64,000 bases of DNA from Pseudomonadota bacterium (GTDB taxonomy: Bacteria; Pseudomonadota; Gammaproteobacteria; Burkholderiales; Gallionellaceae): contig JAJXVB010000004.1 in the NCBI GenBank assembly GCA_021782365.1, positions 1 through 64,000 on the forward strand, in the 5' to 3' direction. This document shows positions 56,297 to 61,730 of this stretch, piece after piece (within the stretch, counting starts at the first letter, position 1; each line of letters starts with the position of its first letter). The position numbers and the translations under genes were made by a program. The notes under the pieces are model-generated. The model saw nothing but the letters and a program-made list of their open reading frames with translations, had not been told where the DNA came from and searched no databases.

Positions 56297-56575
56297 TTAT
56301 CGACTAATCGGCTTATACCGAATCCTCTTAGGCTTAGCCCCCTCTTGGTGAAACTACTAGCCATCTCACTAAGCAACCACAACACGGTTGCCAAGTGGCT
56401 GGTTATCACCCAGGCGCTTCTTCTTGTCCGCCTCATATTCCTGATAGTTGCCATCAAAGAACGTCCACTTCGAATCGCCTTCTGCGGCCAGGATGTGGGT
56501 GGCGATGCGGTCGAGGAACCAGCGGTCGTGGGAGATGACGGCGACGCAGCCTGCGAATTCGAGCAGCGCATCATT
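56297..56575 (-). pseudogene. ettA 3'-end copy 4, interrupted by a palindromic repeat
   Basis: On the minus strand this reads D-A-L-L-E-F-A-G-C-V-A-V-I-S-H-D-R-W-F-L... down to K-K-K-R-L-G-D, then about 60 bases of repeat, then G-A-K-P-K-R-I-R-Y-K-P-I-S-R-stop. Apart from two substitutions (M to A, R to K) it is the C-terminus of the EttA encoded at 60066-61730. Its upstream edge coincides with the stop of the 56571-56807 gene; the DUF4062 gene starts right after its stop. Confidence 0.92.
56348..56408. repeat. palindromic repeat inserted in the ettA fragment
   Basis: About 60 bases break the alignment of the ettA fragment with ettA. The stretch AGCCA...CTCACTAAGCAACC pairs imperfectly with GGTTGCCAAGTGGCT. 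It matches the repeat inside ychJ (39775-39835) in order and spacing, so it is the same mobile or REP-like sequence. Confidence 0.7.
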
Positions 56576-56807
56576 GCATGTCTGCCACACATTTGGCCTG
56601 CGTTCCGGACGTGCGTTTGGGTTTCGATACTGCCGAATGCGCGACATCCACCAGCGATTCAAGGGCAGCATTTACCGCCTCGTTGGTCGGGAATATTTTT
56701 GCCAATTCAGGCTTCAGCAATACCAGGTTGCTGCCCTTCTGGAATGCGGCGTAATGTTTTCCACGTACGCCCTTCCCGAGGTCTTCGCGCTTATATTTGG
56801 TACGCAT
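56571..56807 (-). CDS. 78-residue antitoxin-like protein
   Basis: Start M-R-T-K-Y-K-R-E-D-L-G-K-G-V-R-G-K-H-Y, then S-N-L-V-L-L-K-P-E-L-A-K-I-F-P-T-N-E-A-V-N at the core. This resembles a common family of about 75 residues (K-G-V-R-G-K-Y...V-V-L-x-P-D-V-A-x-x-F-P-x-S-E-x-V-N-x-A-L) that sits beside toxin genes. It begins 2 bases after the DUF2281-like gene. The last residues (after T-S-G-T-Q) are probably recruited from the junction with the ettA fragment. Confidence 0.65.
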   Translation of the reverse strand: MRTKYKREDLGKGVRGKHYAAFQKGSNLVLLKPELAKIFPTNEAVNAALESLVDVAHSAVSKPKRTSGTQAKCVADMQ

Positions 56808-56809
56808 AA

Positions 56810-57031
56810 TTAACACTTGCTCCCCGTGAACATGCTTTCGATCTCGGTACAGCCCATCTGGTCGAAGTCGTCGGGCACTGTAAATTCTCCCGCCATGAAA
56901 CCGAGGCGAGAAGATGCAGCTGCCTTTGCCGAATAGCGCCGCTCCAGATGCTCGATGAAATCCAACGCCTCGCGCGCTGCCTGCTCCGGCAGGCTGCGAC
57001 TGTGCTGATAGATTTGTTCGGCTAACGTCAT
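56810..57031 (-). CDS. DUF2281-like / VapB-type small protein
   Basis: 73 residues. M-T-L-A-E-Q-I-Y-Q-H-S-R-S-L-P-E-Q-A-A-R-E-A-L-D-F-I-E-H-L matches the DUF2281 helix pair found in antitoxins preceding PIN toxins. The C-terminal half (T-V-P-D-D-F-D-Q-M-G) should contact a toxin. No PIN gene follows; the neighbour is the 78-residue protein, so the toxin may be missing or unrecognised. Confidence 0.7.
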   Translation of the reverse strand: MTLAEQIYQHSRSLPEQAAREALDFIEHLERRYSAKAAASSRLGFMAGEFTVPDDFDQMGCTEIESMFTGSKC

Positions 57032-57121
57032 TACCTACTCCTTGCATATTGCTGCCGCATACAGGGCGCATTCTAGCCCCGACGGAACTGTATTTCCATT
57101 TCATAAACAATATACACCGTT

Positions 57122-57147
57122 ACCCGCCGATCGGCTTGCACCGGATC
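57122..57147 (-). pseudogene. possible degenerate ettA 3'-end remnant
   Basis: Right after the diguanylate cyclase stop the minus strand can be read I-R-C-K-P-I-G-G-stop, resembling I-R-Y-K-P-I-S-R-stop, the end of EttA. The core AAGCCGATC is shared. Similarity is too short for certainty, but it occurs just where a cassette boundary is expected. Confidence 0.25.
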
Positions 57148-59312: not shown

Positions 59313-59317
59313 AACCA

Positions 59318-59722
59318 TTACGCAGTCTCCCAATCTTCCAGCCTCAGCCCCGCAATACGCGAAAATTCCCTGGTGTTGTGTGACACCAGAATGCAGTCGT
59401 GCACCAGCGCAACCGCGGCAATCTGCAAATCGTAGGGTCCGATGGGCATGCCTTTGCTCGCGAGGTCGGCGCGAATTTCGCCAGAGAGCCGCGCCGCTTC
59501 GCCGTCAAATGGCAAGCTGCCGAAACTCGCAAACAGCGTAGCAAGCACTGCCAGATTGGTTTCGCGTCTCGTGCTCTTGTATGCACCGTAATACAATTCT
59601 GCCTTGACCACATCACACAGCACAATCTCCAATGGCGAGTGCGATTGGAGTTTGGTCTTGGCGATAGAGAGAGCCGGATTGAGATGGTGTATCCAGACGT
59701 TGGTATCCGGCAGATACAGCAT
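59318..59722 (-). CDS. vapC: VapC PIN-domain ribonuclease toxin
   Basis: 134 residues from ATG 59722. L-P-D-T-N-V-W-I-H-H-L-N (Asp6), K-A-E-L-Y-Y-G-A (Glu), G-P-Y-D-L-Q-I-A-A (Asp) and S-H-N-T-R-E-F-S-R-I-A-G-L-R-L-E-D-W are the classical VapC motifs. It should cleave initiator tRNA or rRNA. The start overlaps the antitoxin stop by one base. Only 5 bases separate its stop from the ettA 3'-end copy. Confidence 0.94.
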   Translation of the reverse strand: MLYLPDTNVWIHHLNPALSIAKTKLQSHSPLEIVLCDVVKAELYYGAYKSTRRETNLAVLATLFASFGSLPFDGEAARLSGEIRADLASKGMPIGPYDLQIAAVALVHDCILVSHNTREFSRIAGLRLEDWETA

Positions 59723-59961
59723 CACTTCAGTTCCGGCCGCCGTTCGTATTCGCCCTGAGGCTCCCGCACCAATGGTTCGCCCTGCCACGCCCCCGAAGTT
59801 TTGGCCCAGACATTCGCTGCCGCTGTCTGGTCTATAGTCTTTGCACCGGAGATTTCTTCCAGCAGGATGACGCGCACAGGCTTTCCGTTCCAATCCTGGT
59901 ACTCGCGCGGCAAGTCCACTACGCCATCGTGCGCCTTGCTGATAAATTCGACTGCTTGCAT
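59722..59961 (-). CDS. vapB: VapB-type antitoxin
   Basis: 79 residues from the ATG at 59961. V-V-D-L-P-R-E-Y-Q-D-W-N-G-K-P-V-R-V-I-L-L-E-E resembles the AbrB-like/DUF-type antitoxin N-domain, and the acidic C-terminal part (S-G-A-W-Q-G-E-P-L-V-R-E-P-Q-G-E-Y) should wrap VapC. It lies 104 bases after ettA. Confidence 0.85.
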   Translation of the reverse strand: MQAVEFISKAHDGVVDLPREYQDWNGKPVRVILLEEISGAKTIDQTAAANVWAKTSGAWQGEPLVREPQGEYERRPELK

Positions 59962-60065
59962 GGCCAGCCTCCTTGTTGAATTAGGGCATTCTAGTCTGAG
60001 CAACGCTGATTAGCCAGAGCCCTTTTCCTAACCCCGCTGCCGGTTGCGGGCGAGGTGAATATGGC

Positions 60066-61730
60066 TCACCGGCTGATCGGCTTGTAGCGTATGCGTTTGG
60101 GTTTCGCGCCCTCTTCACCTAATCTTTTGCGCTTGTCGGCCTCGTATTCCTGGTAGTTGCCGTCGAAGAATGTCCACTTGGAATCGCCTTCTGCGGCCAG
60201 GATGTGGGTCGCGATGCGGTCCAAGAACCAGCGGTCGTGCGAAATCACCATCACGCAGCCCGCGAATTCCAGCAGCGCGTCTTCCAACGCGCGCAAGGTC
60301 TCCACGTCGAGGTCGTTGGAAGGTTCGTCGAGCAAGAGCACGTTGCCGCCGGAGATGAGCGTCTGCGCCAAATGCAGACGGCCGCGCTCGCCACCCGAGA
60401 GCTGGCCCACGATCTTGGCCTGGTCCGCGCCCTTGAAGTTGAAGCGGCCGATGTAGGCGCGCGAAGGCGTCTCGTACTTGCCCACGGTCAGGATGTCGTT
60501 GCCACCCGAAATCGCATCGAACACGGTCTTGCCGTTGTCCAGCGAATCGCGCGCCTGGTCGACGTGCGCGAGCTTGACTGTAGGGCCTATCTTCACGTTT
60601 CCCGAATCGGGCTGTTCTTTGCCTGCGATCATGCGAAACAGCGTGGACTTGCCCGCCCCGTTGGGGCCGATGATGCCGACGATAGCACCGGGCGGCACCT
60701 TGAAACTGAAATTGTCTATCAGCAGGCGGTCGCCGTAAGCCTTGCTGACGTTTTCGAACTCGATGACCTCGTTGCCCAGGCGCTCGCCCACGGGTATGAA
60801 TATTTCCTGAGTCTCGTTGCGCTTCTGGTAATCCACGTTCGAGAGTTCCTCAAAGCGCGCAAGACGCGCCTTGGATTTGGCCTGGCGCGCCTTGGGGTTC
60901 TGTCTCACCCATTCGAGCTCCTGCTTCATCGCCTTCATGTGCGCATCGATCTGCTTGTTCTCCTGCTCCAATCGCGCTTCCTTCTGTTCCAGCCACGAAG
61001 AATAATTGCCCTTCCACGGGATGCCGTGGCCGCGATCGAGTTCGAGTATCCATTCGGCAGCGTTGTCGAGGAAGTAGCGGTCGTGCGTGACCGCGACCAC
61101 GGTGCCGGGGAAGCGCACCAGAAACTGCTCGAGCCATTCGACCGATTCGGCATCCAGGTGGTTGGTGGGTTCATCCAGCAGAAGCATGTCCGGTTTTTCA
61201 AGAAGCAGCTTGCAGAGCGCCACGCGGCGCTTCTCGCCTCCGGAAAGGTTCTTGATCACCGCATCCCATGCAGGGAGGCGAAGCGCATCGGCCGCGATCT
61301 CCATCTGGTGCTCAGCATCAGAGCCGCTTGTGGAAATGATCGCCTCTAGCCTCGCCTGCTCTGCCGCGAGCGCATCGAAGTTCGCATCCGGCTCCGCATA
61401 GGCCGCATAGACTTCGTCCAACTTGGCCTGGGCCTGCATCACCTCACCCAGGGCTGACTCGACTTCCTGCTTCACGGTCTTTTCCGGATCGAGCATGGGC
61501 TCCTGCGGAAGATAGCCTATGTTGATGTTGGGCAGGCGCTGCACCTCGCCGTCGTATTCGTTGTCCACTCCCGCCATGATCCTCAGGACAGTGGACTTTC
61601 CGGAGCCGTTGAGACCCAGGAGGCCGATCTTGGCGCCGGGGAAGAAGCTCAAGGAGATGTCCTTGATGATCTGGCGCTTGGGTGGGACGATCTTGCTCAC
61701 GCGGAGCATGGACATTACGTATTGGGCCAT
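60066..61730 (-). CDS. ettA: energy-dependent translational throttle protein EttA (ABC-F)
   Basis: 554 residues, the normal EttA length. Two ATPase domains: Walker A G-L-N-G-S-G-K-S-T (about 40) and G-P-N-G-A-G-K-S-T (about 350), signatures L-S-G-G-E-K-R-R and L-S-G-G-E-R-G-R, and L-L-D-E-P-T-N-H-L-D / L-L-D-E-P-S-N-D-L-D Walker B blocks, separated by the P-site tRNA-interaction linker (about 240-300). It binds the ribosomal E site and gates elongation by ATP level. The gene is intact, but its 3' end recurs in three or more displaced copies downstream. Confidence 0.97.
   Translation of the reverse strand: MAQYVMSMLRVSKIVPPKRQIIKDISLSFFPGAKIGLLGLNGSGKSTVLRIMAGVDNEYDGEVQRLPNINIGYLPQEPMLDPEKTVKQEVESALGEVMQAQAKLDEVYAAYAEPDANFDALAAEQARLEAIISTSGSDAEHQMEIAADALRLPAWDAVIKNLSGGEKRRVALCKLLLEKPDMLLLDEPTNHLDAESVEWLEQFLVRFPGTVVAVTHDRYFLDNAAEWILELDRGHGIPWKGNYSSWLEQKEARLEQENKQIDAHMKAMKQELEWVRQNPKARQAKSKARLARFEELSNVDYQKRNETQEIFIPVGERLGNEVIEFENVSKAYGDRLLIDNFSFKVPPGAIVGIIGPNGAGKSTLFRMIAGKEQPDSGNVKIGPTVKLAHVDQARDSLDNGKTVFDAISGGNDILTVGKYETPSRAYIGRFNFKGADQAKIVGQLSGGERGRLHLAQTLISGGNVLLLDEPSNDLDVETLRALEDALLEFAGCVMVISHDRWFLDRIATHILAAEGDSKWTFFDGNYQEYEADKRKRLGEEGAKPKRIRYKPISR

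Follow-up and report, generated by a model that had tools for sequence, protein, structure and literature searches.

The window described here is a stretch of 64,000 nt from a genome of the family Gallionellaceae (Pseudomonadota bacterium, assembly GCA_021782365.1, contig JAJXVB010000004.1, positions 1 to 64,000 of the forward strand; genome size 2.53 Mb, 93.7% complete). It carries an intact ettA, the gene of the ABC-F ATPase known as energy-dependent translational throttle. Behind this gene lies an array of four cassettes, each made of one or a few genes, with displaced copies of the 3' end of ettA between them (Table 1). Displaced copies also occur in related genomes, and it seems that in iron-oxidising Gallionella and some of its relatives small foreign cassettes have repeatedly been inserted at the very end of ettA.

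Table 1. Features of the ettA array, in the order in which they follow ettA (positions are those of the window)
Feature	Position	Strand	Genes and remarks
Intact ettA (proposed landing gene)	60066..61730	-	ORF of 554 aa; ABC-F ATPase, energy-dependent translational throttle
Cassette 1	59313..60065	-	79-aa ORF (59722-59961) and VapC-type PIN toxin (59318-59722)
Displaced ettA 3' end, copy 1	59208..59312	-	last 34 codons, same protein as ettA
Cassette 2	58412..59207	-	DUF4160 (58916-59176), DUF2442 (58641-58961) and 54-aa ORF (58447-58611)
Displaced ettA 3' end, copy 2	58364..58411	-	about the last 15 codons
Cassette 3	57146..58363	-	GGDEF gene (57146-58342; Pfam GGDEF 1e-46)
Probable degenerate ettA 3' end (fourth copy)	57120..57147	-	28 nt
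Cassette 4	56571..57118	-	DUF2281 ORF (56810-57031) and 78-aa ORF (56571-56807)
Displaced ettA 3' end, copy 3	56297..56575	-	about 70 codons; interrupted by a hairpin repeat of ~60 nt (56347-56405)
DUF4062 and DUF5677 genes beyond the last copy	54521..56291	-	Pfam 2e-31 and 5e-6

The original prediction, made from the letters of the DNA, had claimed three copies of the ettA 3' end in the orientation of the gene, and all three are present on the minus strand, like ettA. Copy 1 is 86% identical to the local ettA over about 101-104 nt (E 5e-28) and encodes exactly its last 34 residues and a stop codon. Its differences are silent, as had been noted (under the name of copy 2): among the 17 of 105 bases that differ, 15 fall within the 102 bases before the stop codon, all of them synonymous, and the other two within the stop codon itself. 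Copy 2 is 81% identical to the local gene over 42-50 nt, and copy 3 is 83-87% identical to it over 150-167 nt and then continues with 50 nt that are 92% identical to the tail of another species. A possible degenerate copy had been suspected at 57122-57147. The segment in question matches the ettA tail of locus L072 (89%, E 0.001) and was absent from the matches of a profile search at E<1; it is probably a fourth displaced end, lying at the position where successive insertions would require one.

We compared the four copy segments of the window with 71 ettA tails. Their best matches are tails of other species (87-96% identity), and the local ettA ranks 10, 50, 46 and 59 among the 71. Hence, judging by this ranking, the window copies are of foreign origin and do not cluster with the local gene, and its tandem duplication, which we considered as their source, is not supported.

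The ~60-nt repeat that interrupts copy 3 is a nested hairpin, a small interspersed palindromic element, which is also present at about 39800-39920 and was met in L057, L075, L076, L079, L080, L053, and L091. It breaks several ettA copies at one same codon (about -48) and is sometimes tandem or nested. We rejected it as the cassettes' own recombination site and treated it as a passenger, because it is also found away from ettA copies.

The genes between the copies are essentially those that had been predicted. The VapBC pair of cassette 1 was confirmed for the toxin, by Pfam PIN (3e-16) and by NCBIfam VapC (3e-36, under the cut-off of that model), and its 79-aa partner, which has no family match, is an antitoxin by position only. 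Pfam also identified DUF4160 (2e-22) and DUF2442 (7e-10) in cassette 2, where the 54-aa ORF had no match, the GGDEF gene, the DUF2281 ORF of cassette 4 (4e-10; a weak NCBIfam VapB match, 4e-9, is below cut-off) and the two genes beyond the last copy. The 78-aa ORF of cassette 4 overlaps copy 3 by 5 bases. Another 54-aa ORF, at 52793-52957, is 83% identical to that of cassette 2 over 112 nt, and the family match of the pair is sub-threshold at best. It stands directly behind a P-loop gene (52954-53493), which groups with ORFs from other loci, and from this arrangement the ORF of the array may be the orphan partner of a P-loop-type gene.

Recurrence of displaced ettA ends and stepwise growth

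A profile of ettA tails was run across loci holding ettA and its downstream DNA, in a dataset made mostly of draft genomes from different species. A copy was counted when it reached the last 30 profile positions at E<0.01, and a locus was scored when it had at least 1.5 kb downstream, which was the case for 57 loci of the same genus (from 76 genomes of the genus), including the copy-free L071, L074, and L096. We identified 22 displaced copies in 15 of these 57 loci, all 22 in the orientation of ettA and none inverted. Among the five loci excluded for having less than 1.5 kb downstream, L079 has a copy. L082 is a separate case: it is matched in two pieces, and the one that extends to the stop codon (E 0.039) was below the cut. 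ettA itself was matched at E<=1e-100 in 92 of the 101 genomes searched, for some of them only as a paralogue of ~40% identity.

Outside the genus, a displaced copy was found in another genus of the same family (L197), and sporadic ones in other families of Burkholderiales (L072, L114, L195, L196, G274 with a copy of 49 nt, and L175 and L179 in Methylotenera). The copy of L114 lies 9.6 kb from ettA, beyond two very long genes on the minus strand (2367 and 593 aa), for which a two-partner-secretion pair would be a guess from size only. Scanning 80 named loci gave forward downstream matches in L117, L121, L135, L175, and L179. L117 is the contig of G001 and not a new case, the match in L121 (Nitrosomonas) stops short of the stop codon, and that in L135 is weak and likewise short of it; matches in L134 and L164 resemble ABC-F paralogues. 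Two ettA ends were met at a distance from ettA. One is a tail of 52 nt in L087 (G008 contig 7, ~224 kb), 148 kb from ettA and in the opposite orientation, near sequence that sits at the ettA locus in other species; it is possibly the scar of a rearrangement. The other is a 3' end of 180 nt in L088 (G038 contig 5, ~54.3 kb), on a 281-kb contig other than that of ettA.

The displaced ettA ends are real and beyond chance, as two controls confirmed. When 41 ettA loci (704 kb) were each compared with themselves, the ettA 3' end was repeated downstream in 10 of the 41; other direct repeats were present, not classified one by one, and no other gene end was noticed recurring from locus to locus. The second control comprised 854,933 bases (455 kb of the array genome and 200 kb from each of two single-contig relatives), in which partial 3'-end copies were sought up to 15 kb downstream of 710 ORFs of at least 120 aa, ettA included. 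ettA was alone among them in having such copies, two of which passed. An apparent second displaced gene end in G040 was rejected, as it proved to be a complete tandem CheW-receiver paralogue.

Past the stop codon of ettA the sequences of most relatives diverge immediately, as judged by eye. The stepwise DISPLACEMENT is seen where the DNA after a displaced copy in one species is the DNA after the intact ettA in another. The DNA following window copy 1 and that following the intact ettA of L094 share 96% identity over 401 nt that start at the stop codon, and the DUF4160 part of cassette 2 stands directly behind ettA in L094. This locus is the closest match to the window by the body of ettA (89%) and, from the sequence comparison, looks like the state before the insertion of VapC. 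Since the DUF4160 cassette is 96% identical between the two and the DNA shared farther downstream only 79%, the cassette itself has moved horizontally. Similarly, the DNA behind the two copies of L077 is 77-80% identical, from the first bases, to that behind the ettA of L055/L065 and L104. In three further comparisons the shared part starts some 10-70 nt after the stop codon: window copy 2 with L036/L049 (74-75%), the L079 copy with L042 and the L076 copy with L092 (both 74-79%). A stretch resembling cassette 1 (78%) lies behind a displaced copy in L045.

Sister loci are informative in another way. L057 and L076, whose backbones are about 95% identical, hold two cassettes in opposite order. 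One of these can be aligned (883 nt, 87.5%) from the gene across the junction into its own ettA copy on the right, which bears the hairpin; this indicates that the cassette there travels with its ettA end. The region of the 78-aa gene of cassette 4 is partly homologous in both, with an interrupted ettA copy behind it there too. In the sisters L060 and L066 the ettA genes are 93% identical and the downstream backbones 93-95%, and between them 2.3 and 5.1 kb of unrelated DNA lie immediately behind ettA. Taken together, these comparisons argue for stepwise addition at the first position, with the older parts kept downstream. The capture model put forward originally, in which foreign DNA brings its own ettA end and a cassette, restores the gene and pushes the old end downstream, is thus supported by the window copies not clustering with the local ettA, by apparent pre-insertion states and by the swapped order; the relatives show these reciprocal states instead of tandem duplication.

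The genes behind ettA are mostly co-directional with it. This is the case for the first ORF in 50 of the 57 loci with such an ORF. Of the 146 ORFs that have 130 aa or more and begin no farther than 3 kb away, 124 are co-directional. Family scans covered 115 of 154 ORFs from 40 loci, some of them outside the genus. The matches listed include toxin families (PIN/VapC, zeta, BrnT, HepT, ParE, HigB-type), restriction families (GmrSD, Mrr, and other restriction enzymes) and, among the PADLOC matches listed, models of Thoeris, CBASS, Pycsar, AbiU, DRT, and RM. Counting models and not proteins, three array-side sets (39, 36, and 40 ORFs) matched 14, 44, and 74 PADLOC models, and 103 control ORFs of the array genome matched 12, half of which were CRISPR-accessory; GlgB, Ankyrin, three PDC, and one SduA were also among them.

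Proposed homologous recombination and its alternatives

That no integrase is visible had been remarked from the window, and this holds more widely: between ettA and the copies there was no match to the tyrosine integrase family PF00589 (E<=1e-5) in the 22 copy-bearing genomes among the 23 searched (the 23rd, G109, is without a copy). The nearest match, of 301 aa, is in G001, ~10 kb from ettA and past the copy. PF07508 gave seven matches in 15 genomes, none on the contig of ettA (PF00239 was not searched). A phage or viral carrier was rejected, given that viral contigs had 0 matches to a degenerate 27-base pattern of the ettA tail and that 50,697 phage records had no ettA-tail match. The plasmid search matched 65 records, and the 20 listed among them fell either in annotated ettA genes or at sites with no annotation; several of these records were of chromosome size.

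We propose, with a probability of about 60%, that the arrays are built by homologous recombination without an integrase, the conserved 3' end of ettA serving both as the landing pad and as the portable end of the cassette. Each cassette would bear a piece of ettA 3' end at its right edge (31-567 nt in the copies measured) and would otherwise consist of one short gene or a few. Recombination of the incoming DNA by homology would take place inside the resident ettA, within its 3' end. The resulting ettA would keep its own 5' part and take its last bases from the newcomer, so that the protein would remain unchanged; the cassette would land just after the stop codon, and on its far side an ettA 3' end would stay as the displaced copy. 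Repeated rounds would stack cassettes, and the reverse reaction could free a cassette in the form of a circle that has a single ettA end. The recombination may depend on RecA or on a phage-type recombinase. The donor could be circular, which would take one crossover, or a linear piece of another array, which would take two. Entry might be by natural transformation, of which the presence of comEC is no proof, and selection might act through co-transcription, or read-through, from the ettA promoter.

The left edges of the copies vary, giving lengths of 31 to 567 nt, and the breakpoints vary as well; both speak more for homologous recombination than for a single fixed attachment site. The last 765 nt of ettA were scanned for breaks in eleven independent sister pairs. 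Where the likelihood ratio, which is uncalibrated, exceeded 8, the best single breakpoint lay at -688 (64.5), -397 (30.4), -97 (14.5), or -107 (8.7), counted from the end of the gene. By its excess of differences, the terminal 100 nt of ettA ranks second of 1566 windows in the same pairs. Among 64 close, non-independent pairs, the four lowest 12-codon identities at third positions were in windows starting at -81 to -54, and a Mantel-type comparison of tail and body was suggestive only. In L195, of another family, the 567-nt copy has a foreign 5' part and ettA a native one: when compared with the three nearest relatives, 24-26 informative sites of this part agree with ettA and 9-11 with the copy. 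The likening of the process to what integrases do at tRNA genes is thus the weaker point: the edges and breakpoints depart from it, though the last ~25-30 nt are indicated in some cases. One of these is window copy 1, where the comparison with L094 switches from diverged to near-identical inside the last ~30 nt. The last 20 codons have no excess of conservation at synonymous sites (34 sequences), and we accordingly rejected a conserved attachment site at synonymous positions.

Several observations weigh against our proposal. Only 4 of the 11 sister pairs exceed a ratio of 8; the others lie at 6.0-7.3, three of them with breakpoints at -6/-7. Another window nearly equals the excess of the last 100 nt (0.121 against 0.122), and the loss of congruence between tail and body is modest, with comparably low values elsewhere in the gene. 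The ettA tail of L195 (-125..-15) matches the three nearest relatives better than does the copy (7-8 sites against 1-2), which places the crossover in the last ~25 nt and not in the 131-nt block where ettA and copy are identical, a block that sits in a generally conserved stretch. In G279, where ettA is split across two contigs, the copy equals ettA from about -240 to -26 and the 3 differing sites are in the last 25 nt, a pattern that also fits a local duplication followed by a new tail. Several copies measure no more than 31-50 nt, which is short for RecA. comEC, which is present, also occurs in 10 of the 14 control genomes, among them that of E. coli. In 42 of the 57 same-genus loci no copy is visible; plain replacement and decay of the copy are equally possible there. 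Finally, the free circular form that the original prediction had suggested seeking was not found, nor was a phage or plasmid form, in the viral, phage, and plasmid collections (the best 20 of the 65 plasmid matches).

The cassettes could instead be inserted by a recombinase acting in trans, encoded elsewhere or since lost, whose attachment site would be the last ~25 nt of ettA, with the longer copies as the attachment arm of the element, as in staphylococcal cassette chromosome (SCC) elements at rlmH or in tRNA islands. Copies typically end at the stop codon, though those counted were selected for that, and other forward pieces are mostly parts of interrupted copies (apart from one piece in L075 and a weak piece in L105). 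The switches at the end of copy 1 and in L195 and G279 point to such a site, as do the short copies of 31-53 nt; the hairpin at about -48 in several copies would, had it arrived with the cassette, imply a crossover on the right of it. Yet the searches for PF00589 between ettA and the copies (22 genomes) and for PF07508 on the ettA contig (15 genomes) were negative, the breakpoints of the sister pairs are scattered, the left edges of the copies are not fixed, and the synonymous conservation expected of an attachment site is not in excess in the last 20 codons. We regard a recombinase in trans as unlikely. Homology-facilitated illegitimate recombination, where one homologous crossover in ettA is combined with a non-homologous join upstream and the copy is the resident 3' end duplicated from an arbitrary point, seems to us quite improbable. 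It would fit the variable left edges, the identity of the G279 copy with its own ettA from about -240 to -26, and the copy of L045, which has 1 difference to its own ettA in the first ~70 nt and many afterwards. Joining back upstream of the crossover is not known to be the usual product. Moreover, the window copy segments are nearer to the tails of other species than to the local gene, the 5' part of the L195 copy is foreign, and the cassette and right-hand copy common to L057 and L076 form one unit. The mechanism itself has been proposed, in a section of PMC5361080, for effector-immunity arrays of the type VI secretion system (T6SS).

The two remaining explanations concern the local gene and the assemblies. 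If the resident ettA had simply been duplicated in tandem and had decayed, unrelated genes being inserted in between, this would account for copies that are partial and just downstream, and for the near identity of the G279 copy with its own gene. The explanation is at odds with the ranks of the local ettA among the 71 tails, with the reciprocal states across species and with the swapped order in L057 and L076, and is in our opinion very improbable. Most of the genomes are drafts, and the copies of L080, L085, and L106 are near contig ends, as might be expected from an artefact of assembling or binning metagenome-assembled genomes. Such an artefact is hardly credible, given that the copies come from many separate assemblies, are found within contigs of 195-790 kb (the window, L061, and L195), and are distinct in sequence. 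Returning to homologous recombination at the ettA end, we would suggest more tentatively that cassettes with their own ettA tail circulate, as circles or as transforming DNA, among Gallionellaceae and other Burkholderiales and dock at the single intact ettA with no dedicated integrase. They would then constitute the equivalent of an integron run by the homologous recombination of the host.

Relation to known systems

The ettA arrays work like an integron and are closest to minimal mobile elements and to sequential displacement. Integrons consist of an attI site and of cassettes made of a gene and an attC site, and are operated by the integron integrase, a tyrosine recombinase. The ettA arrays resemble them in their short and mostly co-directional cassettes, their toxin-antitoxin and defence cargo, the newest cassette coming first, the swapped order, and a recombination end borne by the cassette. 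They differ in that no integrase was matched between ettA and the copies, in that the carried end is the tail of a coding gene (the cassette ends are ettA 3' ends by alignment), and in their variable edges and breakpoints. SCC elements at rlmH and islands at tRNA sites insert at the 3' end of a gene, restore the gene, leave a repeat, and form tandem arrays, and the ettA arrays share all of this. Unlike them, they have no recombinase found in the array interval (PF00589 and PF07508; PF00239 not searched) and leave copies that reach 567 nt and whose edges vary.

A minimal mobile element is reportedly, after Saunders and Snyder 2002, a set of genes swapped between two conserved flanking genes. 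As in such elements, differing genes lie beside a conserved gene, mobility genes were not seen, and homologous recombination would be at work. Indeed, L060 and L066 have variable DNA beside the conserved ettA, and the interval has no integrase in the 22 genomes, transposases not having been searched systematically. Unlike such elements, the copy-bearing ettA loci are additive, are anchored on one gene, retain displaced ends, and stack. Additive insertion with displaced ends concerns 15 of the 57 loci; the other 42 could be simple replacement. The term minimal mobile element appears, with the reference to Saunders and Snyder 2002, in a passage of PMC1538595.

In T6SS effector-immunity modules of Vibrio cholerae, as described in parts of PMC5361080, the incoming module anchors on a conserved stretch and the older parts shift downstream; these arrays grow stepwise, and the same parts give no evidence of an integrase. 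The ettA arrays are alike in their conserved anchor, their stepwise growth, the older parts downstream, and the absence of a visible integrase. The anchor of the ettA array is a conserved housekeeping gene whose displaced 3' end encodes the same protein (copy 1), and the cargo consists of unrelated genes. The displacement of rhs C-termini is said to be another sequential case. In the T6SS and rhs systems, by contrast, the retained parts are cargo, namely immunity genes or toxin 3' regions. A further parallel is that of the pcp-mediated cfr(C) circles of Campylobacter, where, according to a portion of PMC10770853, a gene segment circularises and inserts elsewhere by homologous recombination. 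Insertion there is random, with transfer to a plasmid, whereas ettA is a recurring chromosomal site of stacking on a housekeeping gene and its circle is hypothetical.

In the literature searched (open-licence papers) we found no description of ettA as an insertion site, or of such arrays in Gallionella. Clusters of defence and toxin-antitoxin genes are often found at hotspots with no visible recombinase, and their route of arrival is often unclear. At ettA, the displaced end is a scar that can be read at many steps, so that dozens of species allow one to reconstruct in what order and from what source cassettes came and where the breakpoints lie. If homologous recombination is indeed responsible, other conserved gene 3' ends could dock stacked cassettes, and the displaced-end scar would be a simple signature for genome-wide searches.

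Two minor features of the window remain to be mentioned. Just upstream of ettA, on the same strand, are two genes (61797-62398) that we take to be a HigA-like helix-turn-helix (HTH) gene and a HigB/RelE-like gene. An inverted repeat of 20 nt (54455-54474 / 58646-58665) ends in a GGGGACAGACC motif, presumably reminiscent of repeats of the repetitive extragenic palindromic (REP) type.

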